Of a DNA stretch of 64,000 nt, positions 39,937 to 57,304 are shown in pieces; the stretch's first letter is position 1, and each line of letters opens with the position of its first letter. A program made the translations under genes and the position numbers. Below the pieces are notes generated by a model, which worked only from the letters and a program-made list of their open reading frames with translations, made no database searches and was not told where the DNA came from. Source of the stretch: Thermodesulfovibrionales bacterium (lineage in GTDB: Bacteria; Nitrospirota; Thermodesulfovibrionia; Thermodesulfovibrionales; Dissulfurispiraceae); assembly GCA_020062545.1 (NCBI GenBank), contig JAGUWD010000004.1, positions 1-64,000 of the forward strand, written 5' to 3'.

Positions 39937-39939
39937 ATG

Positions 39940-39964
39940 CCGTTAGAAAAGCATTTTCTAACGG
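39940..39964. terminator. Hairpin after the GGDEF-EAL gene
   Basis: CCGTTAGAAAA and TTTTCTAACGG pair over 11 bases with a three-base loop (GCA). No T-run follows, so it may be an mRNA-stability hairpin rather than a terminator. Confidence 0.45.
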
Positions 39965-39990
39965 GATAAAGATGTTATAATGAAAACGAG

Positions 39991-41691
39991 ATGAGACGTT
40001 TTAATTTAATTTTAGTTTTTTTGTTTGTTTCTGTTTCTGTTTTTTGCCTTCCTCACGACTCTTTATCGCAGCAGGACAATACAATCAAAATCGGTGTTGC
40101 GTCCATGATTACGCCTATCGATGCTGTCAAGTATTATCAGGAAATAATTGATTACGTAGGCGAGCAGATAAAACAGCCTGTACAGATGGTTCACAGAAGG
40201 ACATATGATGAAATGGATTCATTACTCGAAAGGGGAGAGGTTAAGGTGGCGTTTATCTGCTCTGCGCCATATGTTAAAAACCGCGAGAAATTTGGTGTCG
40301 AACTCCTCGTTGCTCCGAGTGTAAACGGCAAGGCAACATATCATTCATACATAATTGTCCATAAGGACAGTACGATTCAGTCGTTTGCTGATTTGAAAGG
40401 TAAATTTTTCGCCTTTACCGATCCCAAATCCAACACAGGTAAACTGTATCCTACGCATCTGCTCAAAACAATGGGATTTACTCCCGAGAAATTTTTTAAG
40501 AGGGTCATGTACAGCTACAGCCATAACAAATCAGTGGAACTGGTGGCTAAGAAGGTTGTAGACGGCGCTGCTGTTGAGAGCATTGTCTATGAGTATATGG
40601 TGAAGAAGGGCTCGCCTTATGTAAAACAGACAAAGATTATAAAACGGTCTCCTCCCTACGGAATCCCTCCTGTTGTAGTAACAAAAGACATAGATGCGAA
40701 TCTCAAGAAAAAAATAAGGGATGCCTTTTTGAACATGCATAAAACAGCAAAGGGGGCCGCAATACTTAAAGACATGATGATAGATGGTTTTGTGCAGATA
40801 TCAGACAGTGCTTATGATCCAATAAGGGAAATGGAGAGATCTGTTAAAAATGATGTTATGGCGGCGAAAAAGAGAAACGGTAAAAAGACGGTTTCTTTCG
40901 GTGTAATACCGAGGGATAACCCGAGGATATTGTACGAAAAATACCAGCCGCTCCTTGACTACCTCTCCGAAAAGACGCCATATTCATATGAGCTTGTTAT
41001 AAAGAAAAACTATGAAGACACTGTGGAAGCACTCGGTCACGGCGAAGTTGAGGTTGCACTTCTCGGTCCTCTGACATACCTCGAAGCACGCGCTAAATAC
41101 GGGGCTATATGCATACTTAAACCGAAGGGAATCAACGGTAATGCCTCCTATAAGAGCGTAATAATAAAGAGAAAGGATTCATCTGTAAACAGCGCCAATG
41201 GACTAAAAGGAAAAAGCATGGCCTTTTCAGCTTCCAAATCAACATCAGGTAATCTAATGCCCCGTTATATACTTGCAAACTCAGGAATCCACCTTAATGA
41301 ACTGAGTGGCTATGCTAATTTTGATTATCACGACTCTGTTGTCAAGGCGGTTTTGAAAGGGCAGTACGACGCTGGTGCTGTGCGTGATTCGGTGGCAAGG
41401 AAATATATGAAACTCGGCATCGAGGTAATAGCCGAATCTCCGAACATCCCGACAGGCCCCCTTGTCGTAGGCCCCGGAACACCATTTTCAGCAATAGAGA
41501 ATATCAAAAAGGCATTGCTTGGGCTGAATCCCAACAACCCAAACCATCAGAAGATATTAAAAAGGCTTGATGATGACTTCAGAAATGGTTTCATGGAGGC
41601 GTCGGATAAAGATTATGCTGATATACGGGCGAAAATTAATGCAGTGCCCCAGACATGCGGTAAGGGCTGTCATCCTAAGATAAGACTATGA
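39991..41691 (+). CDS. Tandem PhnD-type periplasmic binding protein (ArrX-like)
   Basis: A 566-aa exported protein with an N-terminal signal (VFLFVSVSVFCLPHDSLS). Two PhnD-type substrate-binding domains follow, starting IKIGVASMITPID and KTVSFGVIPRDNPR; each has the F-T/S-D-P-x-S-x(T/S)G element (FTDPKSNTGK, FSASKSTSGN). PhnD-like proteins next to a histidine kinase sense arsenite or arsenate in AioX/ArrX systems. The C-terminus has CGKGCH (spacing of three, not the two normal for c-haem). The stop overlaps the kinase start. Confidence 0.82.
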   Translation: MRRFNLILVFLFVSVSVFCLPHDSLSQQDNTIKIGVASMITPIDAVKYYQEIIDYVGEQIKQPVQMVHRRTYDEMDSLLERGEVKVAFICSAPYVKNREKFGVELLVAPSVNGKATYHSYIIVHKDSTIQSFADLKGKFFAFTDPKSNTGKLYPTHLLKTMGFTPEKFFKRVMYSYSHNKSVELVAKKVVDGAAVESIVYEYMVKKGSPYVKQTKIIKRSPPYGIPPVVVTKDIDANLKKKIRDAFLNMHKTAKGAAILKDMMIDGFVQISDSAYDPIREMERSVKNDVMAAKKRNGKKTVSFGVIPRDNPRILYEKYQPLLDYLSEKTPYSYELVIKKNYEDTVEALGHGEVEVALLGPLTYLEARAKYGAICILKPKGINGNASYKSVIIKRKDSSVNSANGLKGKSMAFSASKSTSGNLMPRYILANSGIHLNELSGYANFDYHDSVVKAVLKGQYDAGAVRDSVARKYMKLGIEVIAESPNIPTGPLVVGPGTPFSAIENIKKALLGLNPNNPNHQKILKRLDDDFRNGFMEASDKDYADIRAKINAVPQTCGKGCHPKIRL

Positions 41692-43151
41692 ATACAATTA
41701 CTGCTTTTTTCTCAAGGTTGGGTCTGAGGTCTAAATTCATTCTGATTACGACAGTAGCCATTATACTTCTCATGGGGATAATAGGTTATATGGCTGTCCA
41801 GAGAGGGAAGAGCATTCTGTACGCCGAGGTCGAAAGGCAGGGACGGTTGCTGGGAGAGACCCTTGCTATTCCGATAATCAACGACTTGATTTACGAAAGG
41901 CTTGGATTGGTGGAGGAAGGCGGCCTGCTCGATAATTACATAATGGAGATATTCAACAGACGCGATGTGGATTTGATTTACATAGCCATTCTGGATGAGG
42001 AGGGGAAGGTAATATCTCACAATAATATTTCGGAGTACGGAAAGATATATTCAGACCACGCAACTGTGAAGGCATTACAGGCAAATGATGCCGTAATACA
42101 CAGCTTTTCGCACAACGGACATAATGCACTTGATTTCGGAGTCCCGCTTTCCATAGGGAAAAAGCGGTGGGGCACGTTGAAGTTTGCAATATCCCTTGAG
42201 GAGGTCGAAAGGGAGATCGTTGCCACTATTAAAAAGATCATCATTCTTACATTGTTCCTCATCATTGCAGGTTTCGGCGTCATACTCCTCTTGAGCAACC
42301 GCTTTATAAGTCCAATAACACATCTTGCTACTACCATGGAAAAAACAGGGGGCGACTATTTAGATGTCAAAGTCGAGGTGAAGGGACATGATGAGCTTGC
42401 CATTTTAGGCGAGAGGTTTAACAGCATGATAGAGAGGATAAAGCAGGCAAACGAAGAACTCAGAAAAACCCATGAAAAGCTGGTACAGTCGGAGAAGCTT
42501 GCATCTGTAGGCATACTTGCCGCAGGTGTTGCCCACGAGATAAACAATCCGCTTGGAGGGGTATTTAACTGTGTGCAGATGTTGAAGCTCAATGGCAATA
42601 ATCCCGAATTAAGAGGGAAGTATCTGGATCTGATAAAAGAGGGACTTGACAGGATAGAAAATACTGTAAGCAAGCTTTTATGGATGTCAAGGAAAGGAGA
42701 CCACACGCCTGTCAGCATTAATGTCAAAGATTCTATAAACGGTGTCTGCACATTTGTGGGATATAAGCTCAAGAAAGGCAAGATTCAGTTTTTCAATGAG
42801 GTGGAGGACGGACTTTTCATGGTATTTGACCCTCATGATTTTCATCAGGTGATTTTAAATCTCTTCATAAATGCAATCCATGCCATGAAGGACGAGGGGT
42901 GTTTGACTGTCAGGGGATACAGGGATGATTCGAAGATAAAAGTGGAAGTTATAGATACAGGCGAGGGTATCGCACAAGAAAATTTAGGCAAGATATTTGA
43001 CCCGTTTTTTACAACAAAACCTCCTGGGGAAGGAACAGGGCTCGGCTTGTGGTTGAGTTATGACATAGTCAGAAATTATAATGGAGAAATCTCTGTTGAA
43101 AGCGAGGTCGGGAAGGGCAGCAAGTTTACACTGACTTTTCCGGCAAATTAA
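41688..43151 (+). CDS. Sensor histidine kinase with extracytoplasmic domain and HAMP
   Basis: A 487-aa kinase: N-terminal helix (residues about 17-33), a Cache-like periplasmic domain (about 40-180), a second helix (about 184-204), HAMP, then HisKA with phospho-acceptor HEINNPLGG and an HATPase with NLFINAIHAM, DTGEGI and GTGLGLWL. It is encoded in an overlap with the binding-protein gene (ATGA), so the binding protein is the likely ligand receptor. Partner of the NtrC-type regulator that follows. Confidence 0.9.
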   Translation: MNTITAFFSRLGLRSKFILITTVAIILLMGIIGYMAVQRGKSILYAEVERQGRLLGETLAIPIINDLIYERLGLVEEGGLLDNYIMEIFNRRDVDLIYIAILDEEGKVISHNNISEYGKIYSDHATVKALQANDAVIHSFSHNGHNALDFGVPLSIGKKRWGTLKFAISLEEVEREIVATIKKIIILTLFLIIAGFGVILLLSNRFISPITHLATTMEKTGGDYLDVKVEVKGHDELAILGERFNSMIERIKQANEELRKTHEKLVQSEKLASVGILAAGVAHEINNPLGGVFNCVQMLKLNGNNPELRGKYLDLIKEGLDRIENTVSKLLWMSRKGDHTPVSINVKDSINGVCTFVGYKLKKGKIQFFNEVEDGLFMVFDPHDFHQVILNLFINAIHAMKDEGCLTVRGYRDDSKIKVEVIDTGEGIAQENLGKIFDPFFTTKPPGEGTGLGLWLSYDIVRNYNGEISVESEVGKGSKFTLTFPAN

Positions 43152-43184
43152 AATTAAAGCGATTTTATAGGTCAGACATGAGGT

Positions 43185-43351
43185 TATGACAGTATGTGTG
43201 CATCAAAGCCTTTACAAAGTGTTATTTTTTATTTATGCCAGAGATCATTAAGGCTCACTTATGTGGTGAGCAATGTTGTAGATGACAGGTTCAAGACAAT
43301 GTTGCATAATATTCTGGAGTGTAAAGTCTTTTCATCACACATACTGTCATA
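43185..43351. repeat. Dispersed structured intergenic element, copy C
   Basis: A 167-base copy with perfect 16-bp outer arms (43185-43200 with 43336-43351), then TTTACA/TGTAAA where copies A and B have TTTAAA/TTTAAA. The interior GCTCAC...GTGAGC hairpin and CAATGTTGTAGATG match A and B in order. Located between the kinase and its regulator, in the same orientation as the genes. Confidence 0.8.
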
Positions 43352-43370
43352 TGCAATATATTAATTTGGG

Positions 43371-44705
43371 ATGAGAGAAACAATTATATTAATAGAAGAC
43401 GAAAAATTGATGAGGGTTACCCTCGATGATGCCCTTAAATCGGCAGGATATGAGGTTATATCCTTTGAAACAGGTACGGAGGCTCTAAGTTTCCTGAGAG
43501 ATAATTCATTCGATGTGCTGGTTACCGATGTAAGGCTGCCTGATATTGACGGTATCGACATACTCCGACAAATTACAAGGACAAATGAGGCGCAGATAAT
43601 TGTGATGACTGCCTTTGGTACAATAAAAGATGCAGTGGAAGCTATGAGGCTCGGTGCATTCGACTACATAACAAAACCGTTTTCTCTGGACGAATTCCTT
43701 CTGCTGATAGAAAGGGCACTGGATGTAAGGAGGCTTAAGGATGAAAATATAAGGCTCAAAAAAGACCTCAACAGATGCTACTGCTTTCCTAATATAATTG
43801 GCGAAAGTCAGGAGATGAAGAGAGTCTTCTCATTGGTCGAAAAAGTTGCTGAATCAGACTCGACAGTCTTAATACTCGGAGAAAGTGGTACAGGAAAGGA
43901 ACTTATAGCGACCACAATCCATTACCAGAGCACGAGGAAGGACAAACCTCTGATAAAGATAAACTGTGCAGCATTGCCCGAGGGTCTGATAGAGAGCGAA
44001 TTGTTTGGACACGAAAAAGGTGCATTCACAGGTGCAATAAAGAGAAAGCCTGGCAGGTTTGAGCTTGCCAATGGCGGCACCATTTTCCTCGATGAAATTG
44101 GAGACATCCCTCTTTCCACACAGGCAAAGATTTTGAGGGTCATACAGGAAAGGCAATTTGAAAGAGTGGGCGGTACAGAAACGCTGAATGTGGATGTAAG
44201 GATAATAGCTGCAACCAATAAAAACCTTGAAGGTGAGGTAAGAAAAGGCAATTTCAGGGAAGACCTCTATTACCGTCTCAATGTTATACCTATAACACTT
44301 CCGCCATTAAGAGAGCGTAAGGAAGATATACCCTATCTTATAGATTTCTTTTTAAGCAAATGCGCAAACAAGTTTTCGAGAAACATCAGTTTCTCAAAGG
44401 ACGCCATTGATGCGCTTTTAGCATACGATTACCCGGGCAATATCAGAGAGCTGGAAAATATTGTGGAACGGTGCGTAACCCTTTCAACTTCGGATACGAT
44501 ACAGAAGGATGACTTGCCGCCTTTTATTGTTAAAAAAACGGACAACAAATATTTCTCCCTTTCTGACATAGCAGCAGAGGCAGAAAAGGAGCATATAATC
44601 AGGATGTTAAAAACCACAAAGGGCAACAAAACCAGGGCAGCGGAAATGCTCGGAATCAGCAGAAAGACACTATGGGAGAAAATGAATGCATACAGGATAG
44701 ACTGA
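43371..44705 (+). CDS. Sigma-54-dependent response regulator (NtrC/ArrR-like)
   Basis: A 444-aa activator. Receiver domain with phospho-acceptor Asp in LVTDVRLPDIDG, a central AAA+ domain with GESGTGKE, GAFTGA and FLDEIGDI, and a C-terminal Fis-type helix-turn-helix (NKTRAAEMLGISRKTLWEKM). The GAFTGA loop shows that it contacts sigma-54. It is followed directly by a sigma-54 promoter with dyad sites, its likely target. Nothing else in the window is a comparable activator. Confidence 0.93.
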   Translation: MRETIILIEDEKLMRVTLDDALKSAGYEVISFETGTEALSFLRDNSFDVLVTDVRLPDIDGIDILRQITRTNEAQIIVMTAFGTIKDAVEAMRLGAFDYITKPFSLDEFLLLIERALDVRRLKDENIRLKKDLNRCYCFPNIIGESQEMKRVFSLVEKVAESDSTVLILGESGTGKELIATTIHYQSTRKDKPLIKINCAALPEGLIESELFGHEKGAFTGAIKRKPGRFELANGGTIFLDEIGDIPLSTQAKILRVIQERQFERVGGTETLNVDVRIIAATNKNLEGEVRKGNFREDLYYRLNVIPITLPPLRERKEDIPYLIDFFLSKCANKFSRNISFSKDAIDALLAYDYPGNIRELENIVERCVTLSTSDTIQKDDLPPFIVKKTDNKYFSLSDIAAEAEKEHIIRMLKTTKGNKTRAAEMLGISRKTLWEKMNAYRID

Positions 44706-44764
44706 AATAATGATGTTCAAAACATGAGCATGTGTGTAGAATATGAACATCAGATAGAATAATT

Positions 44765-44930
44765 TGTTACCTGATTGTAACATTCCTTTTTATACCTCCA
44801 AAAATTATTTTATAAAGCAATACAAAGGCAAACAGACAGACAAAGGCCATTTCTTGTTTCATTTTTGTAACGCTCTCCTTAAATAAAGTCCTTGAAATTC
44901 ATGTAACTAATAATGGCATGAAAGTTGCTT
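44765..44930 (+). promoter_or_regulatory. Sigma-54 promoter with two upstream dyads (cytochrome operon)
   Basis: TGGCATG (44914-44920) and TTGCTT (44925-44930) form a -24/-12 element. Upstream are TGTTAC-N6-GTAACA (44765-44782) and TGTTTC-N6-GTAACG (44855-44872). The dyads are 90 bases apart start to start, and the second is 59 bases before the -24. The same distances occur before arrA (50061-50226). They are probably binding sites of the 43371 regulator. Confidence 0.85.
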
Positions 44931-44965
44931 ACTTTAGAAGTTATGTTAGATTTTTGTTGTTCTCT

Positions 44966-45011
44966 GGATGAACGGGCCTCCCCCACACCCCCATACCCGT
45001 TCATCCATCTT
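44966..45011 (+). promoter_or_regulatory. Leader hairpin with C-rich loop
   Basis: GGATGAACGGG (44966-44976) pairs with CCCGTTCATCC (44996-45006). The 19-base loop contains two CCCCC runs, and ATCTTTTT then GGGGG follow. It lies between the sigma-54 start and the cytochrome ATG. The loop C's could pair with the GGGGG after the T-run, giving an alternative fold, or the hairpin could terminate. Confidence 0.65.
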
Positions 45012-45042
45012 TTTGGGGGCTTATTTAAACAAGGAGAAAAAG

Positions 45043-46047
45043 ATGTTTAATCCGTTTAAGCTCTTTGAGAGATTAGTTGTATGGTATTCAGAGAAACTAT
45101 CCCGCAAGGCAAAGATAATTATCTCCCTTTTTGTTTTACTTTTTGTTATCGGCGTCGGTTTTGCAGGTTATAAGATCAACGACTATTTTGAGCATGACCC
45201 GAATGCCTGTGCCCTGTGCCACGTCCATGACTATGCAAACAAGGCATGGGCAAAGAGCGTGCACAAAAAAGTTACATGCCACGAGTGTCATCATTCAACG
45301 AAGAAGGAACAGGTGGTGCAGTTGTACAGGTTTGTATTTATGGGTCAAAAAACGGTTGAACCAAGACACGGACAGATTATCGTAGCATGGAAGATATGTA
45401 TCCAGTGCCACTGGGAAAAGGACAAAAGATATCCGGATGCGCCTGCAGTGAACCGTTCAAGGTATCATGCAAAGCATGTATTCATCGAGCAGATAGAGTG
45501 TGCAAAGTGCCACGGCTACGTGGTTCATAATTTCCTTCCCGAGGAGAGGTTCTGTGTTAATTGCCATACAGGCAGAGAGGTTCATGGTACAGGCATGGAA
45601 AAACTTGCCTGCATCAACTGCCATACTGACCGCACTCCCCATTTGAGGCCCGACAGGGAGAAGTGTCTGTTCTGTCATGGAGAAGAATCAATAAGGAAAA
45701 AGCTGATCGAGGAAGGGACGATAGATACCAAATATTTCCGGCCTTCATCGGAGCTTATTAAAAAGGCAATAAAGATAAATGTGCCTAAAGATGCACCCAT
45801 GCAGTTCTACTGCTATGAGTGTCATAAGCCTCATAAAAAGGTGAGGCCCGACTGGGGTGACTGTCTTAAACGCTGTCACAGCGACCAGCTCTATGTGGGC
45901 AAGCACGAGTTGCATATAAAAGGCATGAGCATGAAGTGCGTTGACTGCCACAAGCCCCATTCATGGAGGGTTACAGAGTCTCAGGCAAAGAAGGATTGTG
46001 TGAAATGCCACGAATACAAAGACCCTAAAAAGTTTATAGGGGCATAA
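45043..46047 (+). CDS. Membrane-anchored multihaem c-type cytochrome (NapC/NirT-like)
   Basis: A 334-aa cytochrome starting MFNPFKLFER behind AAGGAG; an upstream start at 44968 would run through the hairpin and is rejected. One N-terminal helix (LFVLLFVIGVGFAG) anchors a periplasmic part with ten CxxCH sites (CALCH, CHECH, CIQCH, CAKCH, CVNCH, CINCH, CLFCH, CYECH, CVDCH, CVKCH) and one CxxxCH (CLKRCH). It probably passes quinol electrons to ArrAB, like CymA, though with more haems. Regulated by the preceding sigma-54 promoter. Confidence 0.9.
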   Translation: MFNPFKLFERLVVWYSEKLSRKAKIIISLFVLLFVIGVGFAGYKINDYFEHDPNACALCHVHDYANKAWAKSVHKKVTCHECHHSTKKEQVVQLYRFVFMGQKTVEPRHGQIIVAWKICIQCHWEKDKRYPDAPAVNRSRYHAKHVFIEQIECAKCHGYVVHNFLPEERFCVNCHTGREVHGTGMEKLACINCHTDRTPHLRPDREKCLFCHGEESIRKKLIEEGTIDTKYFRPSSELIKKAIKINVPKDAPMQFYCYECHKPHKKVRPDWGDCLKRCHSDQLYVGKHELHIKGMSMKCVDCHKPHSWRVTESQAKKDCVKCHEYKDPKKFIGA

Positions 46048-46102
46048 CTCCCACGCTCCCATAGTTAATAAATTTGATGGTTATGTCAGGTTTATTTTTT
46101 AG

Positions 46103-46972
46103 ATGCAGAAAAGAATAACTAATCGGGTAGCATATAAGTTTTTGTTATTTCTGGTTGTACTATTTTGTATGACCTTAAATGCCCATACAGTATTTGCCGG
46201 AACTGACATTAAAATATCCGGCTCCAGCACCATACAGCCCCTTGCAGAAGATGTAGGGAAACTGTATCAGCAAAAATATGGACAGCCGGTTCATGTGCAG
46301 GGCGGCGGAAGCATGGCCGGTATAAAAAATGCCATTTCAGGCATTTCAGACATTGGAATGGTTTCGAGGGCGTTAAAAAAAACTGAGAAGTCGAAACTGC
46401 GTTATACCACCATTGGTTTTGATGCCGTTGCAATAATTGTAAATAAGCGCAATCCCTTAAATGAAATAAACAGGACAACCCTTATCACTATATATAACGG
46501 GATTATTAAGAACTGGAAAGAGATAACCACGTGGGATCAGCCGATCAGTCTGGTATCAAAACAGATAGGGAGATCAACGCTGGAGGTGTTCGAAGAATAT
46601 ACTGGATTAAAACATCATTCCAATGGCCGTGGAATCAATGGCAATATCTCGAAAGAGGCATATGAAGCAGGCTCTAATATCGAGGCGGCAACGCTGGTAG
46701 GTGGTGCGCCTGGAGCCATAGGGTATGTATCGGTAGGTACGGCTATGTCCCTGATCGAAAAAGGAATGCCTATAAAAATTCTTGCCTTAAACGGAGTTGC
46801 AGCAATAAAAAAGAACGTGCTTAACGGTACATATCCCGTCAGGAGAGAGTTGAACCTCGTATACAGGAAGGATGATAAAAGGATAAAAAACTATTTAGAC
46901 CTTTTTTTAAGCATGGAGGGACAGGAGATAGTGAAGGCTCAGTGCTTTATTCCTGTCGGAAGAGGCCGGTAA
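46103..46972 (+). CDS. PstS-like periplasmic binding protein
   Basis: A 289-aa exported protein. After a signal (LLFLVVLFCMTLNAHTVFA) comes IKISGSSTIQPLAEDVGKLY, the phosphate-type anion loop, then GGGSMAGIKNAISG, GIIKNWKEIT and GAPGAIGYVSVG. It resembles PstS/phosphate binding proteins but no transporter genes accompany it. A histidine kinase gene starts four bases later, so sensing of phosphate or an analogue such as arsenate is plausible. Confidence 0.82.
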   Translation: MQKRITNRVAYKFLLFLVVLFCMTLNAHTVFAGTDIKISGSSTIQPLAEDVGKLYQQKYGQPVHVQGGGSMAGIKNAISGISDIGMVSRALKKTEKSKLRYTTIGFDAVAIIVNKRNPLNEINRTTLITIYNGIIKNWKEITTWDQPISLVSKQIGRSTLEVFEEYTGLKHHSNGRGINGNISKEAYEAGSNIEAATLVGGAPGAIGYVSVGTAMSLIEKGMPIKILALNGVAAIKKNVLNGTYPVRRELNLVYRKDDKRIKNYLDLFLSMEGQEIVKAQCFIPVGRGR

Positions 46973-46976
46973 AAGC

Positions 46977-48251
46977 ATGAACCTTTCCGAGAAAAGTAAA
47001 ATTATCCTTCCAATTCTTTTGATTGCCGTTTTTGTTTTTTCATCTTTTGGCTGGATTTTTTATTTTCACAAGTATCAGTTGAAGCAGATAATTGAAACAA
47101 TACAGTTGCTGAACCGGATAGACAGCGATATCAAAGAGTTCAACAGGGTCATCCAGAGCGGCATTTTAACACTTGATAACAAATATACCATTCAGGCCGA
47201 CAGGTATTCCCTCGGTATTTTCGACAGCTTAAATACCCTCAAGAAGACCCACTCCTCAGAGGCCGAAAGGATAAAGAGAAGATACATGGATTATTACTCA
47301 AAGCTTATATCTATCAATTCATTGTTTCTCGAAAAGAGGCTACAAGAGGGAAGAAAGAGATTAGATGAACTGGAACTTATCTATTCGGAGATAAATGAGG
47401 AAATATCAAAGACACTCCATATGCACATGGGTGAGTATGAAAGGGCAATAAAGAACATAAACATATTTATGGCTACGACCTCCGTTGTTTTTACCGTGAT
47501 GGTTTCACTGATTATCGGCCTTTTCATGCATTACAGCAAAAAGAGGAAACAGGCGGAAAAGGCAATGATAGAATCCGAAAAAATGGCCTCTCTTGGTGTT
47601 CTGTCAGCAGGTGTTGCTCATGAGATAAGGAATCCGCTGACAATAATATCTCTTGGTGTAGAACAATTGAAATACATGATTAGTGGCAATCCCGAATTGC
47701 TTAAGGTTGCCGAAAACATTAAAAATGCAGTGATAAGGGCAGACAGGATAGTAAGAGGGCTGCTGGATTATTCCCAGCAATCTGCCTTTAGGTTTGAAGA
47801 CCTTAACGTTGCTTTAATAATGGAAGAGTCTTTGCAAATACTGGCCGAGCAGATAAAAAACAGGAATATCTCTATCATCAAACAATTTTCTCCAGACCTG
47901 CCAGGACTAAAGTGCGACAGGGATAAAATGCGGCAGGTCTTTGTAAATATCCTGCTCAATGCTATCGATGCCATGCCTGATGGTGGAACAATTTCAATAA
48001 AACTCGAAAGCGATGAAAAAACCCTGCTGCGAATCGTCTTTACAGACACAGGAAAGGGGATTTCGGATGAAGAGATACATAAGGTCTTTGACCCGTTTTT
48101 CAGTACCTCTCACAAAACCAGCACAGGTCTGGGTCTTTCTATAGCAAGGGGTATAGTGGAAAGGCACGGCGGCAGAATAACAATAGAGAGCAGGGAGGGA
48201 AAAGGCACTGATGTGATAATCACATGTCCAGCGGGTAAAAGTAGTGATTAA
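46977..48251 (+). CDS. Sensor histidine kinase paired with the PstS-like protein
   Basis: A 424-aa kinase with helices near residues 10-30 and 158-180 and a helical periplasmic domain between them. The kinase core has HEIRNPLTIIS with the phospho-acceptor, NILLNAIDAMPDGG and DTGKGIS, GLGLSIARG. No HAMP is obvious. No regulator gene follows it; it may act on the NtrC-type regulator at 43371 or on the receiver at 55608. Coupled to the binding-protein gene. Confidence 0.85.
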   Translation: MNLSEKSKIILPILLIAVFVFSSFGWIFYFHKYQLKQIIETIQLLNRIDSDIKEFNRVIQSGILTLDNKYTIQADRYSLGIFDSLNTLKKTHSSEAERIKRRYMDYYSKLISINSLFLEKRLQEGRKRLDELELIYSEINEEISKTLHMHMGEYERAIKNINIFMATTSVVFTVMVSLIIGLFMHYSKKRKQAEKAMIESEKMASLGVLSAGVAHEIRNPLTIISLGVEQLKYMISGNPELLKVAENIKNAVIRADRIVRGLLDYSQQSAFRFEDLNVALIMEESLQILAEQIKNRNISIIKQFSPDLPGLKCDRDKMRQVFVNILLNAIDAMPDGGTISIKLESDEKTLLRIVFTDTGKGISDEEIHKVFDPFFSTSHKTSTGLGLSIARGIVERHGGRITIESREGKGTDVIITCPAGKSSD

Positions 48252-48255
48252 ACTC

Positions 48256-48346
48256 AAATTACGCAAGGGCATGACAGTAGATGTACTTCAAAGTATTTAC
48301 AATCTGTTATACGCAATAGTAATATTATTTTACATTTGCGTAATTT
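48256..48346. repeat. Shortened relative of the dispersed element, copy D
   Basis: A 91-base element bounded by AAATTACGCAA (48256-48266) and TTGCGTAATTT (48336-48346). Its interior from 48271 (ATGACAGTA...TTCAAAG...TTTACAA...TGTTAT) matches the 5' half of copy C at 32 of 40 aligned positions by hand. The middle and right parts of copy C are missing. Between the kinase and the chemoreceptor gene. Confidence 0.65.
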
Positions 48347-48364
48347 AGTTAACGGAGGGGGAGT

Positions 48365-49969
48365 ATGAATCTAAAAGATGTATCTCTAAAAAACAAGGTA
48401 ATGGTGCCGATTGCAGTGATGGTCACTGTAGGCATTGTAATCACAATTTTTGTAACAACAGGCAAGACCAGGAGTATTGTTATAGATGAGGCAAAGCATA
48501 CAGCCCTTGCCGGGTTCAGAGATACGGTATTAAATACCCTGACAACAATGATGATTACCGGCAATATCAAAGAGGCCAAGTCCCCGTTTTTAGAGCAGAT
48601 GTCGCATATCGCAGATGTACATGTGATAAGAGCGGAAGTCCTCGATAAAGATTATGGAAAGGGCAAGCCAGAGGAATATCCAAAGGATGAGATCGAAAGA
48701 GAGGTCGTGGAAAAAGGCATGGAGAGGATTTTTCTCGAAGGAGAACATCTCAGAGGTATTTTCCCATATATTGCAAAGTCAAATTATATGGGCAGAAACT
48801 GCCTTAACTGCCATAATGTAAAAGAAGGGACTGTCCTTGGCGCAATAAGCATAAAGATACCACTGACACGTTCCTTTGCCACTATCAGGTCATCCCGCAA
48901 CCTCTATTTCGGACTCGGATTAATTGGCATTCTGTCAGTAACCGGAGCCATATTCTTTCTCGTTACAATTGCCTTCAGGCCACTGACTCATCTGATAGAA
49001 AAGGTCAGACAGTTGTCAGAAGGAGATTTGACAGCCACAATAGACTATCACAGTAAAGATGAAATAGGCGTTCTTGCGCATAACATGAACAAGATGATAC
49101 AGTCTTTTAACAGCATGATAAACGGCATACTCGCATCATCAAACAAAGTGGTGTCCACAGTGGATGTATTGAGGACCAGGGCAGAAAAGACATCAGAAGG
49201 TGCAAAGAATCAATCCTTACAGGCCCACCAGATAGCAACTGCAGCAGAAGAGATGAGCCAGACAATAACAGATATAGCTAAAAATGCATCCGTGGCATCT
49301 GATACATCATCAGAGGCAATGGAAATAGCAGAAAGCGGCAAACAGATAACGGATACAACTGTTGAAACGATAAATGAAGTCAATACTTCCACGGCAGAGC
49401 TTTCAAGGATGGTGGACAGGCTGAACAACAGGGTGGTTGAGATTGGAGGAATAGTAACCGTAATCAAAGATATTGCAGACCAGACAAACCTTTTAGCATT
49501 GAATGCAGCAATCGAGGCAGCAAGGGCAGGTGAGCAGGGAAGGGGATTTGCAGTTGTTGCTGATGAGGTAAGAAAATTAGCAGAAAGGACAATAAAGGCA
49601 ACAACAGAGATTTCGGAAAAGATAGGAGCAGTGCAGGTTGAATCCGAGCAAACGGCTAAGTCTATGTCTTCCTCCACAAAGGGTATAACTAAGGCAGTAG
49701 GACATGTGAAGAACTTGAAGAATGTTCTGGATACCATTGTGGAGTCTGTTCAGAATGTCAGAGATCAGATAACACAGATAGCAACTGCAGTTGATGAACA
49801 GTCTGCTGCATCGGAAGAAGTGGCAGGAAATATAGAAAAGACATCTGCCATTGCAAAAGACATGGAGAAGATGGCGGATGATGTAATGCAGGAGATTGAT
49901 GCATTGGCAAAGATAGCAGAGGAATTAAGAAACTCAACAGCAGGGTTTAAGACAAGGGAAACAGAATAA
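48365..49969 (+). CDS. Methyl-accepting chemotaxis protein with periplasmic CxxCH motif
   Basis: A 534-aa chemoreceptor. Helices at about residues 13-30 and 178-202 bound a sensor domain in which [17 protein letters not shown] lies just before the second helix, as in the GGDEF-EAL protein. HAMP and the signalling hairpin follow, with [20 protein letters not shown] and [18 protein letters not shown], conserved for CheA/CheW coupling. Covalent haem binding would make it a redox sensor, consistent with energy taxis linked to the reductase cluster. Confidence 0.9.
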
Positions 49970-50060
49970 AATATGGCGCTATGACTGTGAAAAGGGAAAT
50001 TTCCGAGAGGGCATCAAACTGTCTTGATATCATTAAGGAGAGAACAGAATAAACCAATAT
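49970..50060 (+). other. Intergenic segment with a possible 23-codon frame
   Basis: A short frame at 49981-50052 begins MTVKREISERASNCLDIIKERTE and ends in a stop; it has no recognisable homologue and no good ribosome site. I see nothing else before the promoter at 50061. Confidence 0.2.
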
Positions 50061-50226
50061 TGCTACTAAATCGTAACACTCCGATTTTTGGATAAAAGGA
50101 CATTGTTTTTATTGATAATAAAAGCAGATATGTGCTTTTTAATTGATATCTGTTTCTTTTTAGTAACACATCTGTAAGAATAAACCTTTTGTTTTCAATA
50201 TGTTACATATGGCATAAAAGTTGATA
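50061..50226 (+). promoter_or_regulatory. Sigma-54 promoter with two upstream dyads (arrA operon)
   Basis: TGGCATA (50210-50216) and TTGATA (50221-50226) form the -24/-12 element; TTGA is weaker than TTGC. Upstream dyads are TGCTAC-N6-GTAACA (50061-50078) and TGTTTC-N6-GTAACA (50151-50168). Spacings (90 bases between dyads, 59 to the -24) equal those of the cytochrome promoter at 44765. The 134 bases between here and arrA contain no further clear motif except the ribosome site. Confidence 0.8.
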
Positions 50227-50362
50227 TGATATTGTTATTTGACAAACAAAATGAGGTGGGATAACCTTTAGAACAGGCATGACAGAAGGGGGTGAGAAGG
50301 AGGGATTTCAGAATTTCTGCAGTTAATTTCTTGTTAATTTTAAACCTGAAAAGGAGGTAAAG

Positions 50363-52915
50363 ATGGAGATTAAGAGAAGAGACTTTCTTAAGGTAAGCGT
50401 AGCAGCAGGCGCGGCAATGGCTTTAACAGGACCATCGCTTAATGCGTTTGCTGCGGTGCCAAAGCCGCTTGCAGGTGAAAAAGTGAGCGGAAGCACAGAT
50501 CCCGGCAAATGGATTGCATCTACATGTCAGGGGTGTACCACATGGTGTCCTGTTGAAATATTTGTCCAGAACGGCAGGGCTGTAAAGGTCAGAGGAAACC
50601 GTTATTCAATGCAAAATTTAGGTTATGTATGTCCGAGAGGTCATCTATCACTTCAGCAGGTTTATGACCCTGACAGGATAAAGGTTCCTATGAAAAGGAC
50701 AAACCCTCAAAAAGGAAGAGGGGTTGATCCCAAATTTGTTCCGATTACCTGGGATGAAGCACTCAATACCATTGCCGATAAAATGATGGAGCTAAGAAAA
50801 GCTGGCGAATCGCATAAATATCTTCTCATGAGGGGAAGATACACCTATATGAGGGATATGATTTATGATGCGATGACTAAGATCTACGGCTCCCCTAATA
50901 ATATTTCACACAGCGCTATCTGTGCTGAGGCAGAGAACTTCGGAGCATTTTACACAGAAGGGATGTGGGGATACAGGGATTATGATTATAACAAGACAAA
51001 ATATCTTGTTATCTGGGGATGCGATCCTACCAACTCAAACAGGCAGGTTCCTCTTTTTATAAAAAGTTTTGGCGAAGTGCTTGATAAAGCTACGGTTGCG
51101 GTTGTTGACCCGAGAATGCAGACAACAGCTTCAAAGGCGCATGAATGGCTTCCTATAATACCTGGGCAGGACGGCGCTCTTGCAACAGCCATTGCCCATG
51201 TAATCCTTACGGAAGGGCTCTGGAATAAGGAATTCGTCGGCGATTTCAAAGACGGCAAGAATCAGTTTAAGGCGGGTAAGACAGTTGATGAAGCCGCTTT
51301 TGTCGAAAAAGAGACTTCCGGACTCGTAAAATGGTGGAACATTGAACTTAAAGACAGAACACCTGAATGGGCTGCCCCAATTACCGGAATTCCAAAAGAG
51401 CAGATAATAAGGGTTGCAAAAGGAATGGGTAAGGCTGCACCTAATGTAATTGTCTGGCTGGGCCCCGGCGCCGCAATGCAGGTAAGAGGCGGTTACAGTG
51501 CCATGGCGATACATGCGCTTAATGGACTGCTCGGCGCAGTTGACCACGAGGGCGGAACACTCGGCGGAGCAAAACAGGCAGCTGAGCATATGCCTAAGGT
51601 AGATAAATATCAGGACGATATTGCAAAAAAGCATTCCAAGATGCAGAAGATAGACCAGAGAGGATACAAACACCTCCCTGCTCTCCATCAGGGCAAACCT
51701 GGAGACGGAGTCGTAACAAACAACACTGCTACAGGCATCCTTGAGTCTGATCCCTATGACATAAAAATGGCTATTGGTTACATGAATAACTTTACTTTCT
51801 CATGCACAGGCGCACAGAGATGGGAAAAGGCAATGGAGAAAATACCATTCTTTGTTCATATTACAACAAATGTCGCTGAGATTACGCAGTATGCAGATAT
51901 CGTGCTTCCTGCTGCCATCACAAAATATGAGAAATGGGGATTTGTAAAACAGAAACAGAACAGACATGCCCATGTTTCGCTTATCCAGCCGGTAATTAAG
52001 CCTATGTGGGATGTTAAGATTGATGAAACCGAGATACCATTCCTGATTGCTGAAAAACTCAAAGAGAGGGGCTTCTCAAACCTCTATGACTATTACACCC
52101 ATGAGCTTAAAGACCCTGAAACCGGTCTGGCTCCACGCAATGCAAAAGAGTTTGCGCTCTATTCAGTTAAATATTACACCTACCCTGCATGGGGCAAAGA
52201 AGACGGCGCTAAGCTTGGAGACAAGATTAACGGCTGGGAAGACTATCGGAACCGCGGCGTATGGAACTCAAAGCCTTATGAATATAAAAAGAGATGGGGC
52301 GGCAAATTCGGCACTGTAACAAAGAAGTTTGAGTTCTACAGCGAAACCCTTAAAAAAGCTCTTAAAGCTCATGCTGAAAAACATAAGACAAATGTGGACG
52401 ATATCCTTGAGACCTGCAAATATACTGCAAAGGGTGAACTGGCATTTGTGCCTCATTACGAGCCTCCTTTCAGACACGGAGATGTGAAAGATTATCCCTT
52501 CACCTTCATTGACTACAAGTCAAGGCTCAACAGGGAAGGAAGAAGCCAGAACGCTCCTTGGTATTACGAATTCCATAAGGTTGACTTTGGAGATTTAAGC
52601 CATGAGGATGTTATCCATATCAATCCTGCCGATGCCCATAAACTCGGAATCAAGGATGGCGATATGGTAAAGGTAACCTCAGTAAGCGGCAGTTTCATCA
52701 TTAAGGCTCACCTTTGGGAAGGCATCCGTCCTGGTACAGTCGCAAAGTGCTACGGTCAGGGACACTGGGCATACGGAAAGACCGCTTCCAAGGAATTCGG
52801 CAAGACCCCAAGAGGAGTCAACAATAATGAGATTATGCCCTTTGACATTGAACGTTTAAGCGGTGCTAACGTAAGAAACGGCGGATTTACCGGCGTTAAA
52901 ATTGAGAAGGCTTAA
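50363..52915 (+). CDS. arrA: Molybdopterin oxidoreductase, arsenate reductase ArrA-like
   Basis: An 850-aa DMSO-reductase-family catalytic subunit. A Tat signal (RRDFLK, then hydrophobic to residue 31) precedes the [4Fe-4S] site CX2CX3CX27C (C55, C58, C62, C90). From memory of Shewanella ArrA numbering, C187 is the Mo ligand (Cys193), R159/Y160 match R165/Y166, H183/S184 match H189/S190 and Y204 matches Y210. Asn192 stands where ArrA has Lys198. The C-terminal MoCo-binding domain and the strings YDPDRIKVPMKRTNP and GQGHWAYG are ArrA-like. ArxA (arsenite oxidase clade) remains an alternative. Confidence 0.82.
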   Translation: MEIKRRDFLKVSVAAGAAMALTGPSLNAFAAVPKPLAGEKVSGSTDPGKWIASTCQGCTTWCPVEIFVQNGRAVKVRGNRYSMQNLGYVCPRGHLSLQQVYDPDRIKVPMKRTNPQKGRGVDPKFVPITWDEALNTIADKMMELRKAGESHKYLLMRGRYTYMRDMIYDAMTKIYGSPNNISHSAICAEAENFGAFYTEGMWGYRDYDYNKTKYLVIWGCDPTNSNRQVPLFIKSFGEVLDKATVAVVDPRMQTTASKAHEWLPIIPGQDGALATAIAHVILTEGLWNKEFVGDFKDGKNQFKAGKTVDEAAFVEKETSGLVKWWNIELKDRTPEWAAPITGIPKEQIIRVAKGMGKAAPNVIVWLGPGAAMQVRGGYSAMAIHALNGLLGAVDHEGGTLGGAKQAAEHMPKVDKYQDDIAKKHSKMQKIDQRGYKHLPALHQGKPGDGVVTNNTATGILESDPYDIKMAIGYMNNFTFSCTGAQRWEKAMEKIPFFVHITTNVAEITQYADIVLPAAITKYEKWGFVKQKQNRHAHVSLIQPVIKPMWDVKIDETEIPFLIAEKLKERGFSNLYDYYTHELKDPETGLAPRNAKEFALYSVKYYTYPAWGKEDGAKLGDKINGWEDYRNRGVWNSKPYEYKKRWGGKFGTVTKKFEFYSETLKKALKAHAEKHKTNVDDILETCKYTAKGELAFVPHYEPPFRHGDVKDYPFTFIDYKSRLNREGRSQNAPWYYEFHKVDFGDLSHEDVIHINPADAHKLGIKDGDMVKVTSVSGSFIIKAHLWEGIRPGTVAKCYGQGHWAYGKTASKEFGKTPRGVNNNEIMPFDIERLSGANVRNGGFTGVKIEKA

Positions 52916-52934
52916 GGAAAGGAGGTAAAGATAG

Positions 52935-53732
52935 ATGCCTAAATACGGAATGGTAATAGATTTACAAAAGTGTGTAGGCTGCGGAGCTTGCGCCCTTGCT
53001 TGCAAAACAGAGAACAACACCCAGGACAGGGCAAAAGGACAGACCTTTAACTGGGCGGATTTCATCTATAAAGCAGAGGGTAAGTTTCCGAATGTTAAGT
53101 TTACGGCAATGCCTGTTCTCTGCAACCACTGCACCGACGCCGCATGTGTGAAGGCATGTCCGGTAACACCGAAGGCAATGCACAAGCACGAAAACGGTAT
53201 GACCATACATAATATGGAAAGGTGTATTGGATGCCGTCAGTGTCAGAGAGCATGTCCTTATAGTTCGGAGGATGTGGACAAAAGCAAGGCGGCATATAGT
53301 GTAATTAGCTTCAATGATTTTTCGGATGAAGTACATCCTTTCTACAGGGATAAAAAAGAGGTTGTTGCAGGTTGCACCGCATCAGGAGCAGAGATCGCTC
53401 AAAAAGCAGGAGACATTCCTCCGCACAGAACACTTTACAAACACTCCGACTATGCAAGCGTAAGAGTTGCGGGCAAGGTCGAAAAGTGCATGTTCTGCGA
53501 GCACAGGGTTCTTAACGGCGAGCAGCCGTACTGTGTAGCTTCATGCCCTGCGGGAGCCAGGATATTCGGAGACCTTAATGACCCGAACAGCGAGGTTAGC
53601 AAGGCTCTTAAGGCACATAAAGCTGTTCAGCTGGCAAACAACAAGGGCGAGCTTTTAAAGCCAGGCGAAAAAGGCACACAGCCTAATGTTTACTACATAA
53701 GGGGCTTCAAGGTAACGGCCAAAAAGGCGTAA
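52935..53732 (+). CDS. arrB: Iron-sulfur subunit, ArrB-like
   Basis: A 265-aa four-cluster ferredoxin subunit of the DMSO-reductase family. Cysteine groups: CVGCGACALAC, CNHCTDAACVKAC, CIGCRQCQRAC and CMFCEHR...CVASC. The start MPKYGMVIDLQKCVGCG and the ending VYYIRGFKV match ArrB. No signal, so it is presumably carried through Tat with ArrA. No membrane anchor subunit (NrfD/ArrC type) is present in the cluster, so electrons probably arrive from the multihaem cytochrome. Confidence 0.88.
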   Translation: MPKYGMVIDLQKCVGCGACALACKTENNTQDRAKGQTFNWADFIYKAEGKFPNVKFTAMPVLCNHCTDAACVKACPVTPKAMHKHENGMTIHNMERCIGCRQCQRACPYSSEDVDKSKAAYSVISFNDFSDEVHPFYRDKKEVVAGCTASGAEIAQKAGDIPPHRTLYKHSDYASVRVAGKVEKCMFCEHRVLNGEQPYCVASCPAGARIFGDLNDPNSEVSKALKAHKAVQLANNKGELLKPGEKGTQPNVYYIRGFKVTAKKA

Positions 53733-53742
53733 TGCCTGTATG

Positions 53743-53800
53743 AAGTGATGGAGCTGTGGGGTGATGGAGCGGTCAGATGTTTCATCACCCCCAATCTATA
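53743..53800. repeat. Small inverted repeat after arrB
   Basis: GTGATGGAG occurs twice, in units of about sixteen bases, and a reverse-complement arm follows: GGGGTGATG at 53757-53765 pairs with CATCACCCC at about 53783-53791. It precedes the chaperone gene and may be a weak terminator or processing site. Confidence 0.5.
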
Positions 53801-53839
53801 TTCTTTTGCGCCAAAATACTTCCAATAAATGAGGTGAAA

Positions 53840-54505
53840 GTGAACATAGACGTATTATTAAATGAAAAAATAAGGGGAGACTGCTACAGGCTTTTATCTG
53901 CATGTTTTTATCAGCCTGATAAATCTCTTTTTGTACAGGAAAATCTCTTGAGAAATCTTGCAGAGGCACTGAAAAGGGTCTGTCCTCCTGCCTCTGTATT
54001 TGCAGAAGAGATAGAAAGAGCAATTGCGAAATATACAAATGAAGAACTGTTAGTTGATTATGCAAAACTTTTTGTAGGACCAAATGAGCTGATCGCACCG
54101 CCATATGGCTCGATTTATCTCGATAAGGAAAGAAAGGTTATGGGGGATTCCACGATTAAGACAATGGAACTCTACCGGGAGGCAGGACTTGCCATCAGCG
54201 ATGATTTTAAGGAACTGCCTGACCATATAGCCGTTGAGTTGGAATTCATGTATTATCTTGTATTTAAAGAGACAGAGGCACTGGAAAAATCTGATATTGA
54301 TACCGCTCATAAATTTATTAAGATGCAGCAGGAATTTCTAAATTCATTTCTCGGCCTCTGGATAAATAATTTCTGCGAAAGAATAGAAAACGGCACTGAC
54401 AACGAATTCTATCGAGCACTTGCCAGATGTGTCTCGGCCTTTATTATGAACTCTGTTATCCCTGATAAAATCATGAGCGAAAAGGCACAGGGAGTTCTAA
54501 ATTAA
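53840..54505 (+). CDS. arrD: TorD-type molybdoenzyme chaperone
   Basis: A 221-aa helical chaperone that would bind the ArrA Tat signal and help cofactor insertion. The TorD pattern is visible in LLVDYAKLFVGPNELIAPPYGSIYL and MYYLVFKETEAL. GTG 53840 behind GAGG is the preferred start; an upstream in-frame start would lack a ribosome site. Overlaps the next gene by one base. Confidence 0.82.
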   Translation: MNIDVLLNEKIRGDCYRLLSACFYQPDKSLFVQENLLRNLAEALKRVCPPASVFAEEIERAIAKYTNEELLVDYAKLFVGPNELIAPPYGSIYLDKERKVMGDSTIKTMELYREAGLAISDDFKELPDHIAVELEFMYYLVFKETEALEKSDIDTAHKFIKMQQEFLNSFLGLWINNFCERIENGTDNEFYRALARCVSAFIMNSVIPDKIMSEKAQGVLN

Positions 54506-55482
54506 TGCTGCAGGGCAAAATAATCAACACTATGTCGAACACGGCAGATGCGATTGCCGTAGACCAATCGAGGTGTTTGAGGATGCGTTTTAACAAAAGC
54601 ACCTGCAGCGAGTGCATTAAGCATTGCAGGTTCGATGCTGTCAGAATAGACGAGTGTATTGACATCAAGAGAGATGCATGTTCTGAATGCATGTTATGCG
54701 TATCTGTATGTCCTTCGGGATGCTTTGATGCAAAAGCTACGGATTTTTATTCCCTTATCTCGAGATTAAAGAAAGCTGTTAATTCTGTTTCGTCCCCCGT
54801 ACTTGGCTGCAATGAGAGGGTGGATTTAAAGGCACATGAAAGAACTGTTTGCTTTGGTTTTCTGTCGGAAGATCATATTATTGCCCTTTCGGTTTTCATG
54901 GAGGGACGGCTCCAGATTAATCTTACGGGATGCGCTGATTGCAGGAACGGGTTCATTGTCGATACCCTGAAGAAAAGAATCGGGAATATTGCTAAAAATA
55001 CCTCTTTGAATGTATTTGAAAAGATATGCCTTGTGGAAGATGGATCAGAGTTGTATTATCAGGACATCTCTTACGACCGCAGGGGATTTTTCAAGGCGAT
55101 TAAAAATCTGACATTTCTTCATGCCTCTGAGTTTTTCGAGAACGACGAAGTTATGGCACCACAGTCATATTCAGCAAAAAAAATTCCTATCAAGAGGGAT
55201 TTGCTGAACAGGGTTATATCTTATAAAAAGGGAGACAACACCGCTTTGCTTGAAAATTATTATTATACCGTTGATATAAACGAAGACTGCAACAACTGCT
55301 TTGCTTGCATAGGCATGTGTCCTACAGGTGCATTGAAAATAGAAACCGCAGGCGATGGCAGGGAATTGTCTTTCAATACTTCATTATGCATCGGATGCGG
55401 ATTGTGTGAGGGGTTTTGCATAAATAATGCAATTTCAATTGAAAAGGGCTTTAGAGGGCATAATCCTTTTGAATTTGCTTAG
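54505..55482 (+). CDS. Multi-cluster ferredoxin-type protein
   Basis: A 325-aa iron-sulfur protein. Cysteine groups occur at CSECIKHC, CSECMLCVSVC, a middle CADC, CNNCFACIGMC and CIGCGLCEGFC, so two ferredoxin domains with about three or four clusters flank a non-conserved middle. Similar proteins accompany molybdoenzyme chaperone genes; an assembly or electron-transfer role for ArrAB is inferred. No signal peptide. Confidence 0.75.
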   Translation: MLQGKIINTMSNTADAIAVDQSRCLRMRFNKSTCSECIKHCRFDAVRIDECIDIKRDACSECMLCVSVCPSGCFDAKATDFYSLISRLKKAVNSVSSPVLGCNERVDLKAHERTVCFGFLSEDHIIALSVFMEGRLQINLTGCADCRNGFIVDTLKKRIGNIAKNTSLNVFEKICLVEDGSELYYQDISYDRRGFFKAIKNLTFLHASEFFENDEVMAPQSYSAKKIPIKRDLLNRVISYKKGDNTALLENYYYTVDINEDCNNCFACIGMCPTGALKIETAGDGRELSFNTSLCIGCGLCEGFCINNAISIEKGFRGHNPFEFA

Positions 55483-55490
55483 CTCTCCCT

Positions 55491-55537
55491 CGTGGATGGG
55501 GTGCTTTCCCCTGTTCCCCCGCCCCATCCACATTTTT
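55491..55537 (+). terminator. Terminator hairpin with C-rich loop
   Basis: GTGGATGGGG (55492-55501) pairs with CCCCATCCAC (55522-55531), then ATTTTTATT. The loop holds CCCC and CCCCC runs, like the hairpin at 44966. It closes the arrA-arrB-chaperone-ferredoxin unit. Confidence 0.8.
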
Positions 55538-55607
55538 ATTGGCGGCTGAATAAATTTAATATTAAATTTACAATTAGATTGGTTATCATTAATAATGAAC
55601 TCAGGAG

Positions 55608-55973
55608 GTGGGCGAAATAAATATACTCATAATAGACGACGAGCCCCTGATTATAACGTCATTACTGGAGTATTTGTCCGAAAAGGGACATGACGTGGTT
55701 GGCACAAATTCGCCTAATGCTGCTGTTTCTCTGATAAATTTCGATAAATTTGATGTAGTAATTACGGATTTAAAAATGAAACCCTATAGCGGTATCGATA
55801 TAATCAGGAGGCTCAGGAGCGCAGGTTTTGCCGGCAAGATAATTATGGTGTCGGCCTTTTATAAGGAGAATAAAGAGGAAATGGATGCATTGAAAATCGA
55901 TGCCTGTTTTGAAAAACCGTTTTCATTGAAGGATATCCACAAGAAAATAGAAGAATGGGCAGCTCAAAATTAA
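55608..55973 (+). CDS. Stand-alone receiver-domain protein
   Basis: A 121-aa CheY-like receiver with acidic pocket (IIDDEP), phospho-acceptor Asp in VITDLKMKP, and the conserved Lys in FEKPF. No output domain. GTG 55608 sits inside the AGGAGG ribosome site, so initiation may instead occur at the in-frame ATA at 55617; the start is uncertain. May be phosphorylated by the orphan kinase at 46977. Confidence 0.85.
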   Translation: MGEINILIIDDEPLIITSLLEYLSEKGHDVVGTNSPNAAVSLINFDKFDVVITDLKMKPYSGIDIIRRLRSAGFAGKIIMVSAFYKENKEEMDALKIDACFEKPFSLKDIHKKIEEWAAQN

Positions 55974-56575
55974 TTAATTCAGACTTCGAAGGACTCCTTG
56001 CTGAATCTGTAAAGATTCACGGACACCTCTGTCCCGGACAGGTTCTTGGCGTCAAGATGTCTATTTTAGGATTATCCCAAATTGCAATAGAAGATCCTAA
56101 AGGCAAGGACAGAAAAAGCCTGATTGTATTTGTGGAGATGGACAGGTGTGCAACGGATGCTGTGCAGTCTGTTACAGGATGCAGCCTCGGTCACAGGACT
56201 ATGAAATTCATGGACTACGGCAAGATGGCAGCTACATTTGTGAACCTGAAAACTGGCAAAGCTGTGAGGATAATAGCGAAAGAAGAAGCAAGGGATAAGG
56301 CAAAGAAATACTTCCCTGACATTGAGGATAAATACAAGGCACAGCTTGAGGCGTATAAGATAATGCCTGATGAGGAGTTGTTTGAGGTCATGTATGTAAG
56401 GGTGAATATAAAGCCGGAGGATATGCCGGGCAGACCTTTAAAGCGGGTCTCATGCGATATTTGCGGCGAATTCGTGCAGGATATGAGGGATGTTGCAAAA
56501 GACGGCAAGACCTTATGTAAACCGTGCGCTTTGGGAGGATATTACACAATTGAAGACGAGTCTTATGGTAAATAG
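55955..56575 (+). CDS. FmdE-domain protein with zinc ribbon
   Basis: A 206-aa protein. Residues about 18-120 match FmdE (HGHLCPGQVLGVKMSILGL, CATDAVQSVTGCSLGHRT, a CX-metal site), and the C-terminal part has a two-cysteine-pair ribbon (CDICGEF...LCKPC). FmdE-type proteins often sit in molybdenum or tungsten enzyme clusters; the precise function is unproved. It overlaps the receiver gene by 19 bases. Confidence 0.85.
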   Translation: MGSSKLINSDFEGLLAESVKIHGHLCPGQVLGVKMSILGLSQIAIEDPKGKDRKSLIVFVEMDRCATDAVQSVTGCSLGHRTMKFMDYGKMAATFVNLKTGKAVRIIAKEEARDKAKKYFPDIEDKYKAQLEAYKIMPDEELFEVMYVRVNIKPEDMPGRPLKRVSCDICGEFVQDMRDVAKDGKTLCKPCALGGYYTIEDESYGK

Positions 56576-56846: not shown

Positions 56847-56864
56847 TTTTTTATTATTAACGTT

Positions 56865-57293: not shown

Positions 57294-57304
57294 GGAGGAT
57301 AATT

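Follow-up and report, generated by a model that had tools for sequence, protein, structure and literature searches.

Two predicted RpoN promoters in the window (the whole stretch of 64,000 nucleotides analysed here), one ahead of a cytochrome c gene (promoter A) and one ahead of an arrA-like gene (promoter B), raise the question of whether the inverted repeats upstream of each mark them as targets of a single regulator, and if so of which. The original prediction ascribed to both an identical four-part architecture, with two TGYTWC-N6-GTAACR dyads (the far UAS1 and the near UAS2) followed by a sigma-54 promoter with its -24 element. All four dyads and both TGGCAT elements were found at precisely the bases predicted (Table 1), and recounting from the sequence gave start-to-start distances of 90 bp between the dyads and 59 bp from the second dyad to the -24 element at both promoters. 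The intervening sequences do differ, the inter-dyad spacers of promoters A and B being 38% identical, which is the background level. The -12 elements are TTGCT at 44925 (promoter A) and TTGAT at 50221 (promoter B); the latter departs from the consensus TGGCAY-N5-TTGCW at the -12 C, and TTGA also serves as the -12 element in 9 of 39 related promoters. The GG and the -12 G are invariant in those 39 promoters and the genome (G000) carries rpoN (TIGR02395, 447.5 bits against a cut-off of 277), in agreement with the predicted sigma-54 dependence.

Table 1. Features of the arr locus and its two promoters, in window coordinates.
Feature	Position	Strand	Basis
arrX-like sensor, tandem PhnD-type binding protein	39991..41691	+	first half closest to ArrX structure 6x6b, 1.3e-46
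arrS-like sensor kinase	41688..43151	+	sCache, HAMP, HisKA, HATPase
arrR-like NtrC/AtoC-type response regulator, proposed activator	43371..44705	+	domains; co-occurrence with twin dyads
UAS1, promoter A, TGTTACCTGATTGTAACA, proposed ArrR operator	44765..44782	+	conserved class in 39 promoters; GTT-N10-AAC
UAS2, promoter A, TGTTTCATTTTTGTAACG	44855..44872	+	90 bp from UAS1
IHF-type position, promoter A, ATTCATGTAACTA	44897..44909	+	39-promoter alignment; 3 mismatches to WATCAANNNNTTR
-24/-12 sigma-54 promoter A, TGGCAT-N5-TTGCT, TGGCATGAAAGTTGCT	44914..44929	+	59 bp from UAS2
Leader hairpin and U-run, GGATGAACGGG ... CCCGTTCATCC ATCTTTTT	44967..45014	+	between promoter A and its first gene
Cytochrome c, 10 CxxCH, NrfH-like N-terminus	45043..46047	+	first gene after promoter A
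PstS-like solute-binding protein, operon A	46103..46972	+	profile match
Second histidine kinase, operon A	46977..48251	+	domain match
Methyl-accepting chemotaxis protein, one CxxCH in sensor region, operon A	48365..49969	+	domains, motif
UAS1, promoter B, TGCTACTAAATCGTAACA	50061..50078	+	pattern match
UAS2, promoter B, TGTTTCTTTTTAGTAACA	50151..50168	+	90 bp from UAS1
IHF-type site, promoter B, TTTCAATATGTTA	50193..50205	+	one mismatch to WATCAANNNNTTR
-24/-12 sigma-54 promoter B, TGGCAT-N5-TTGAT, TGGCATAAAAGTTGAT	50210..50225	+	59 bp from UAS2
arrA-like molybdopterin subunit, Tat signal	50363..52915	+	NF041714; PDB 6cz7
arrB-like iron-sulfur subunit	52935..53732	+	NF041715, 257 bits, below cut-off 450
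TorD/DmsD-type chaperone, promoter B operon	53777..54505	+	domain match

A hairpin with a U-run similar to that in the leader of operon A is present at the same place in a related locus (L038). A search of Rfam over positions 39900-58000 gave no match.

The genes for the binding protein, kinase and regulator are adjacent, in the order 39991-41688-43371, and the best PDB match of the binding protein is the ArrX structure 6x6b; its second half resembles phosphite/phosphonate binders, unlike described ArrX. The regulator has a receiver domain, an AAA+ domain with the GAFTGA motif at residue 217 and a Fis-type helix-turn-helix, the composition of the AtoC class. By these similarities the three genes form an arrXSR system, for which arsenate is the presumed ligand. 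The molybdopterin subunit matches NF041714 over the full profile length with 1164.7 bits and, among solved structures, ArrA 6cz7 with 1022 bits, the next being a thiosulfate reductase with 164 bits; because the NF041714 score falls below the curated NCBIfam equivalog cut-off of 1600, we call the enzyme ArrA-like.

The dyads are confined to these two promoters. Five strand-matches to the pattern in the window correspond to four sites, one of which matches on both strands, where 0.08 would be expected, and TGYTWC-N6-GTAACR was found nowhere else in the whole genome (2,619,295 bases). Allowing one mismatch to TGTTAC-N6-GTAACA added a single, unrelated site on contig C8. The genome-wide search for further dyads at these spacings, proposed with the original prediction as a check, returned the two-dyad composite exactly twice, and the reversed-pattern control not at all.

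When 84,980 species genomes were scanned for a -24 element combined with dyad 2 and dyad 1, the gaps being allowed to range loosely over 41-44 and 68-80, 26 matches were obtained against about 0.4 expected by our own base-frequency estimate; the twin-dyad composite is not a chance occurrence. Nearly all of the matches are in Nitrospirota MAGs, with a few in MAGs of Syntrophaceae and other Deltaproteobacteria. An ArrR orthologue is encoded within 21 of the 26 matched stretches, and two more (L062 and L073) are on contigs that carry one elsewhere. Among 396 Nitrospirota genomes, with ArrR orthologues called at E<=1e-170, the twin dyad is present in 30 and ArrR in 51, and 29 of the 30 pattern carriers have ArrR; in the thirtieth (G346) the site lies 30 bases from the contig end. 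The exact pattern is missing from 22 of the 51 ArrR-bearing genomes, some of which have looser sites (L109, L121, L136), and in some of the others the sites may lie off the contig. Most regulator orthologues from the same family (71-89% identity) are accompanied by twin dyads with this geometry, upstream of arrA or of a related operon, and in a genome of the same genus (G008) the twin promoter is kept at both operons. The case for ArrR as the cognate activator rests most firmly on the 29 of 30 co-occurrence, and co-regulation of both promoters by the protein encoded at 43371, as had been proposed, is strongly supported by this comparison.

The anatomy of the promoter was defined from 39 non-redundant examples, after removal of four rows of the raw scan that were reverse-strand duplicates or had mis-registered -24 boxes. 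The consensus is YGTTACNTAATCGTAACA for UAS1 and YGTTTCCTTTTCGTAACA for UAS2, and the cores of the two differ, UAS1 leaning to TTAATC and UAS2 to CTTTTC. UAS1 and UAS2 are separated by 86-94 bp and UAS2 and the -24 element by 58-60 bp, while spacer identity is near background (median 0.40 against 0.37 in shuffled sequences); this conserved geometry with unconserved spacers is new. A single exception, L136 (genome G003), has UAS1 67 bases before UAS2 but retains 59 from UAS2 to -24, as counted directly on its sequence, which indicates that the near distance is constrained and the far distance tolerant. The predicted 59 bp thus proved tight across relatives, whereas the 90 bp is one value within a range, and because the UAS1-UAS2 spacing is not fixed, the 90/90 match of the two window promoters is partly luck. 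Distances of 86-94 bp and, once, 67 led us to discard strict helical phasing between the dyads as an explanation.

The proposal that the dyads represent a new operator was not borne out. They correspond to the GTT-N10-AAC operator documented for AioR, for which a footprint on GTTCGGATTTCCGAAC and a 16-position motif have been published (PMC5335332). Of the dyads in the window, three have GTT-N10-AAC and the one at 50061 has GCT-N10-AAC; among the related promoters GTT-N10-AAC is present in 37 of 39 UAS1 and 37 of 39 UAS2 sequences. The full 16-position motif is matched without mismatch by 16 of 39 UAS2 and 7 of 39 UAS1 sites, where the chance of such a match is 0.026% for random 5-6-5 dyads and still only 5% once the half-sites are fixed. 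From this fit we conclude that the operator is of a known kind.

The four-part description is incomplete, as a fifth, IHF-like element precedes the -24 box in most promoters. A site within one mismatch was found in 25 of the 39 promoters, against 2.4 in shuffles, with 22 at a single offset; its core is TCAANNNNTTR and it ends about 4 bases before -24. The recurring GTTA in this region had suggested a third ArrR half-site, a candidate we rejected since TCAA...TTR with variable bases fits IHF better. Genome G000 encodes IHF alpha, scoring over its cut-off, and a probable IHF beta just under its own. A role for IHF is doubtful at promoter A because of the three mismatches there.

Taken together, these features make it very probable, as judged from sequence and comparative data, that both RpoN promoters are activated by the ArrR-like regulator as the output of an arsenate-sensing arrXSR relay. 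Periplasmic arsenate, or a related oxyanion, would bind the tandem ArrX, and ArrS would then phosphorylate ArrR. Dimers of ArrR would occupy the far dyad, centred at about -166, and the near dyad, at about -76 (positions obtained arithmetically from the spacings, with the start of the -24 element taken as about -26). Bending at the IHF-type site, where present, could help the AAA+ ring to reach, through looping, the sigma-54 polymerase at -24/-12, so that the arrAB-torD operon and operon A, with its cytochrome, PstS-like protein, second kinase and chemoreceptor, would be switched on jointly.

Other readings of the dyads were considered. The genome has 24 matches to the regulator family at E<=1e-80, and another of these roughly two dozen NtrC-type proteins might bind the dyads with arrR nearby by chance. 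Yet of the 345 genomes among the 396 that lack an ArrR orthologue the pattern occurs in one only, at the contig edge noted above, and in many genomes the sites start some 10-60 bases past the end of arrR, so we judge this very unlikely. A different division of labour would make the near dyad the sole activator site and leave the far dyad to repression, to autoregulation of the arrXSR transcript or to a neighbouring unit. The contrast between a tight near and a loose far spacing would suit such a scheme, as would the differing cores of UAS1 and UAS2, but UAS1 is no less conserved than UAS2 and occurs also at promoters distant from arrR (L039, L040, the second promoter of L042, and L140); we regard the scheme as unlikely, though worth keeping in mind.

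That the spacings are exactly equal at the two window promoters might also reflect recent promoter duplication and not selection. True orthologous spacers, those of the window arrA promoter and L037, are 69% identical, against the background-level 38% between promoters A and B, and the geometry persists in many families despite unalignable spacers. Duplication was rejected on spacer identity and is extremely unlikely. Dyads as such suit many regulators, and could in principle be repressor operators or terminators unrelated to sigma-54 activation, an idea rendered scarcely credible by their fixed distance of 58-60 bp to -24/-12 in 39 promoters and their match with an operator at which an activator of this regulator type has been footprinted.

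Besides the ArrA-like type, enzymes of two TtrA-like types stand behind the twin-dyad promoter, as do PhsA-like enzymes, which have a triheme cytochrome ahead of them; none of the ArrA-, PhsA- and TtrA-like enzymes reaches the curated cut-off for its family. Mapped onto the ArrR tree, the ArrA label requires 8 changes, of which well-supported branches force at least 5, and the PhsA-like label 6, with at least 3 forced; only these two counts were used, because two tree rows labelled TTR1 (L075 and L086) are better called TTR2. The regulators of L065 (ArrA-like) and L068 (TtrA-like) are sisters (support 100/100) and the ArrX proteins 85% identical. Sister regulators likewise serve L107/L141 (ArrA-like) and L064 (PhsA-type), with ArrX 94% identical; at L064 the triheme cytochrome gene is visible while the enzyme itself is not in view. 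The controlled molybdoenzyme thus changes repeatedly on the regulator tree, among ArrA-like, PhsA-like and TtrA-like forms; the switch is portable, and this is new. Against an unchanged signal, the ArrR of G188 is 84% but its ArrX only 61% identical to that of the window, and in one TtrA-like group ArrX identity is 52-56%. No ArrA orthologue was found elsewhere in the searched genomes with other enzymes (best matches 29-35%). We tentatively raise the possibility, which we hold at somewhat less than even, that ArrXSR and the twin-enhancer promoter are a portable cassette and that the PhsA- and TtrA-like enzymes behind it in genomes lacking ArrA are unrecognised reductases of arsenic or related oxyanions. 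If so, the 86-94/58-60 operator grammar would serve as a marker by which to find such reductases.

The switch recurs in dozens of relatives, nearly always with the same regulator and sometimes before another respiratory enzyme. For respiratory arsenate reduction in uncultured Nitrospirota, on which the literature searched contained no regulatory study, it provides a predicted layout of operator and promoter that spans the phylum, and it would extend an operator of arsenite oxidation to arsenate respiration. The operator, and not enzyme homology, points to enzymes that would escape ArrA searches and are candidates for arsenic respiration, and the strict near spacing beside the looser far spacing is a testable statement on how such enhancers work.

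Paired dyads upstream of -24/-12, with activation by looping, are familiar from NtrC-type two-site enhancers such as glnAp2, where the sites are about 30 bp apart as opposed to the 86-94 bp seen here. The ArxXSR system of Alkalilimnicola ehrlichii likewise combines an AtoC-type regulator, ArxR, with an RpoN promoter, and a site with gtaac has been predicted, by homology only, upstream of arx; the target of this system is an arsenite oxidase, and the available part of its description does not include a twin-site geometry. In Chrysiogenes arsenatis, as here, arrX-S-R lie beside arrAB, and ArrX binds arsenate; the ArrR of that species is of the CitB type, without AAA+, and arrAB was not found to be preceded by an RpoN promoter, whereas the window ArrR is of the AtoC type, as are AioR, ArxR and epsilonproteobacterial ArrR (PMC5908839). 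The aio cluster of the plasmid-borne relative in Azonexus (NZ_CP151407) was set aside as an aio promoter comparison, having an NtrC-type regulator but another dyad, GTTGAAG...CTTCAAC, before its operon. The AioXSR system of Agrobacterium and Rhizobium, acting on aioBA and mcp, shares the set of binding protein, kinase and NtrC-type regulator, the RpoN promoter and GTT-N10-AAC. The AioR of Agrobacterium GW4 switches on a chemoreceptor gene as well, and one site is described in the aioBA fragment used (PMC5335332); an arsenic oxidoreductase target together with a chemoreceptor gene, here in operon A, is common to that system and to the window locus. Unlike AioXSR, the locus described here has an ArrA-type reductase as target, a tandem-fusion binding protein, and two operators at the 86-94/58-60 geometry together with an IHF-type site.

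The surroundings of the arr genes suggest that the regulon is tied to c-di-GMP turnover, since a gene for a CxxCH-containing GGDEF/EAL protein adjoins arrX, which encodes the tandem binding protein, in the window, or the arrA promoter in two related genomes (G012 and G013). The kinase of operon A (46977) has no obvious partner in its vicinity besides a stand-alone receiver protein. A promoter with twin dyads, the paired operators proposed for the regulator ArrR, was also found in genome G025, where no ArrA match was detected at a threshold of 1e-40.

Features in or near the arr regulon in the window and in loci from related genomes (L-numbers)
Feature	Location	Remarks
Leader stem and U-run	window 44967-45014	between promoter A and first gene; 11-bp stem GGATGAACGGG/CCCGTTCATCC, then ATCTTTTT
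Counterpart leader stem and U-run	L038 7225-7268	same-genus genome; stem GGTGAACGGG/CCCGTTCACC
Twin-dyad promoter	L142 4197-4290	G025; precedes kinase and PstS-like genes
Stand-alone receiver	window 55608-55973	downstream of arrAB
GGDEF/EAL protein, CxxCH	window 37336-39936	directly upstream of arrX
GGDEF/EAL protein, CxxCH	L039 5794-8352; L040 9037-11598	G012/G013; directly upstream of arrA promoter

Two roles are possible for the leader stem following promoter A: attenuation, or termination of arrXSR transcripts. Its position is matched by the stem and U-run of the same-genus genome, and its GAACGGG/CCCGTTC core occurs only once in the genome; its fold is not clearly better than those of shuffled sequences (z -1.1).

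Tandem ArrX closes with a conserved tail (41640-41691), which is TCGxxCHPxxxL (CX3CH) in most of the orthologues inspected and has a variant with shifted cysteines in L050 and L072; the tail could possibly bind heme, a metal or arsenite.

The ArrA-like protein of Syntrophus sp. GWC2_56_31 (L065) is 81% identical to that of the window, closer than many Nitrospirota copies (62-66%), and this sequence comparison suggests that the arr island moved between phyla by transfer.
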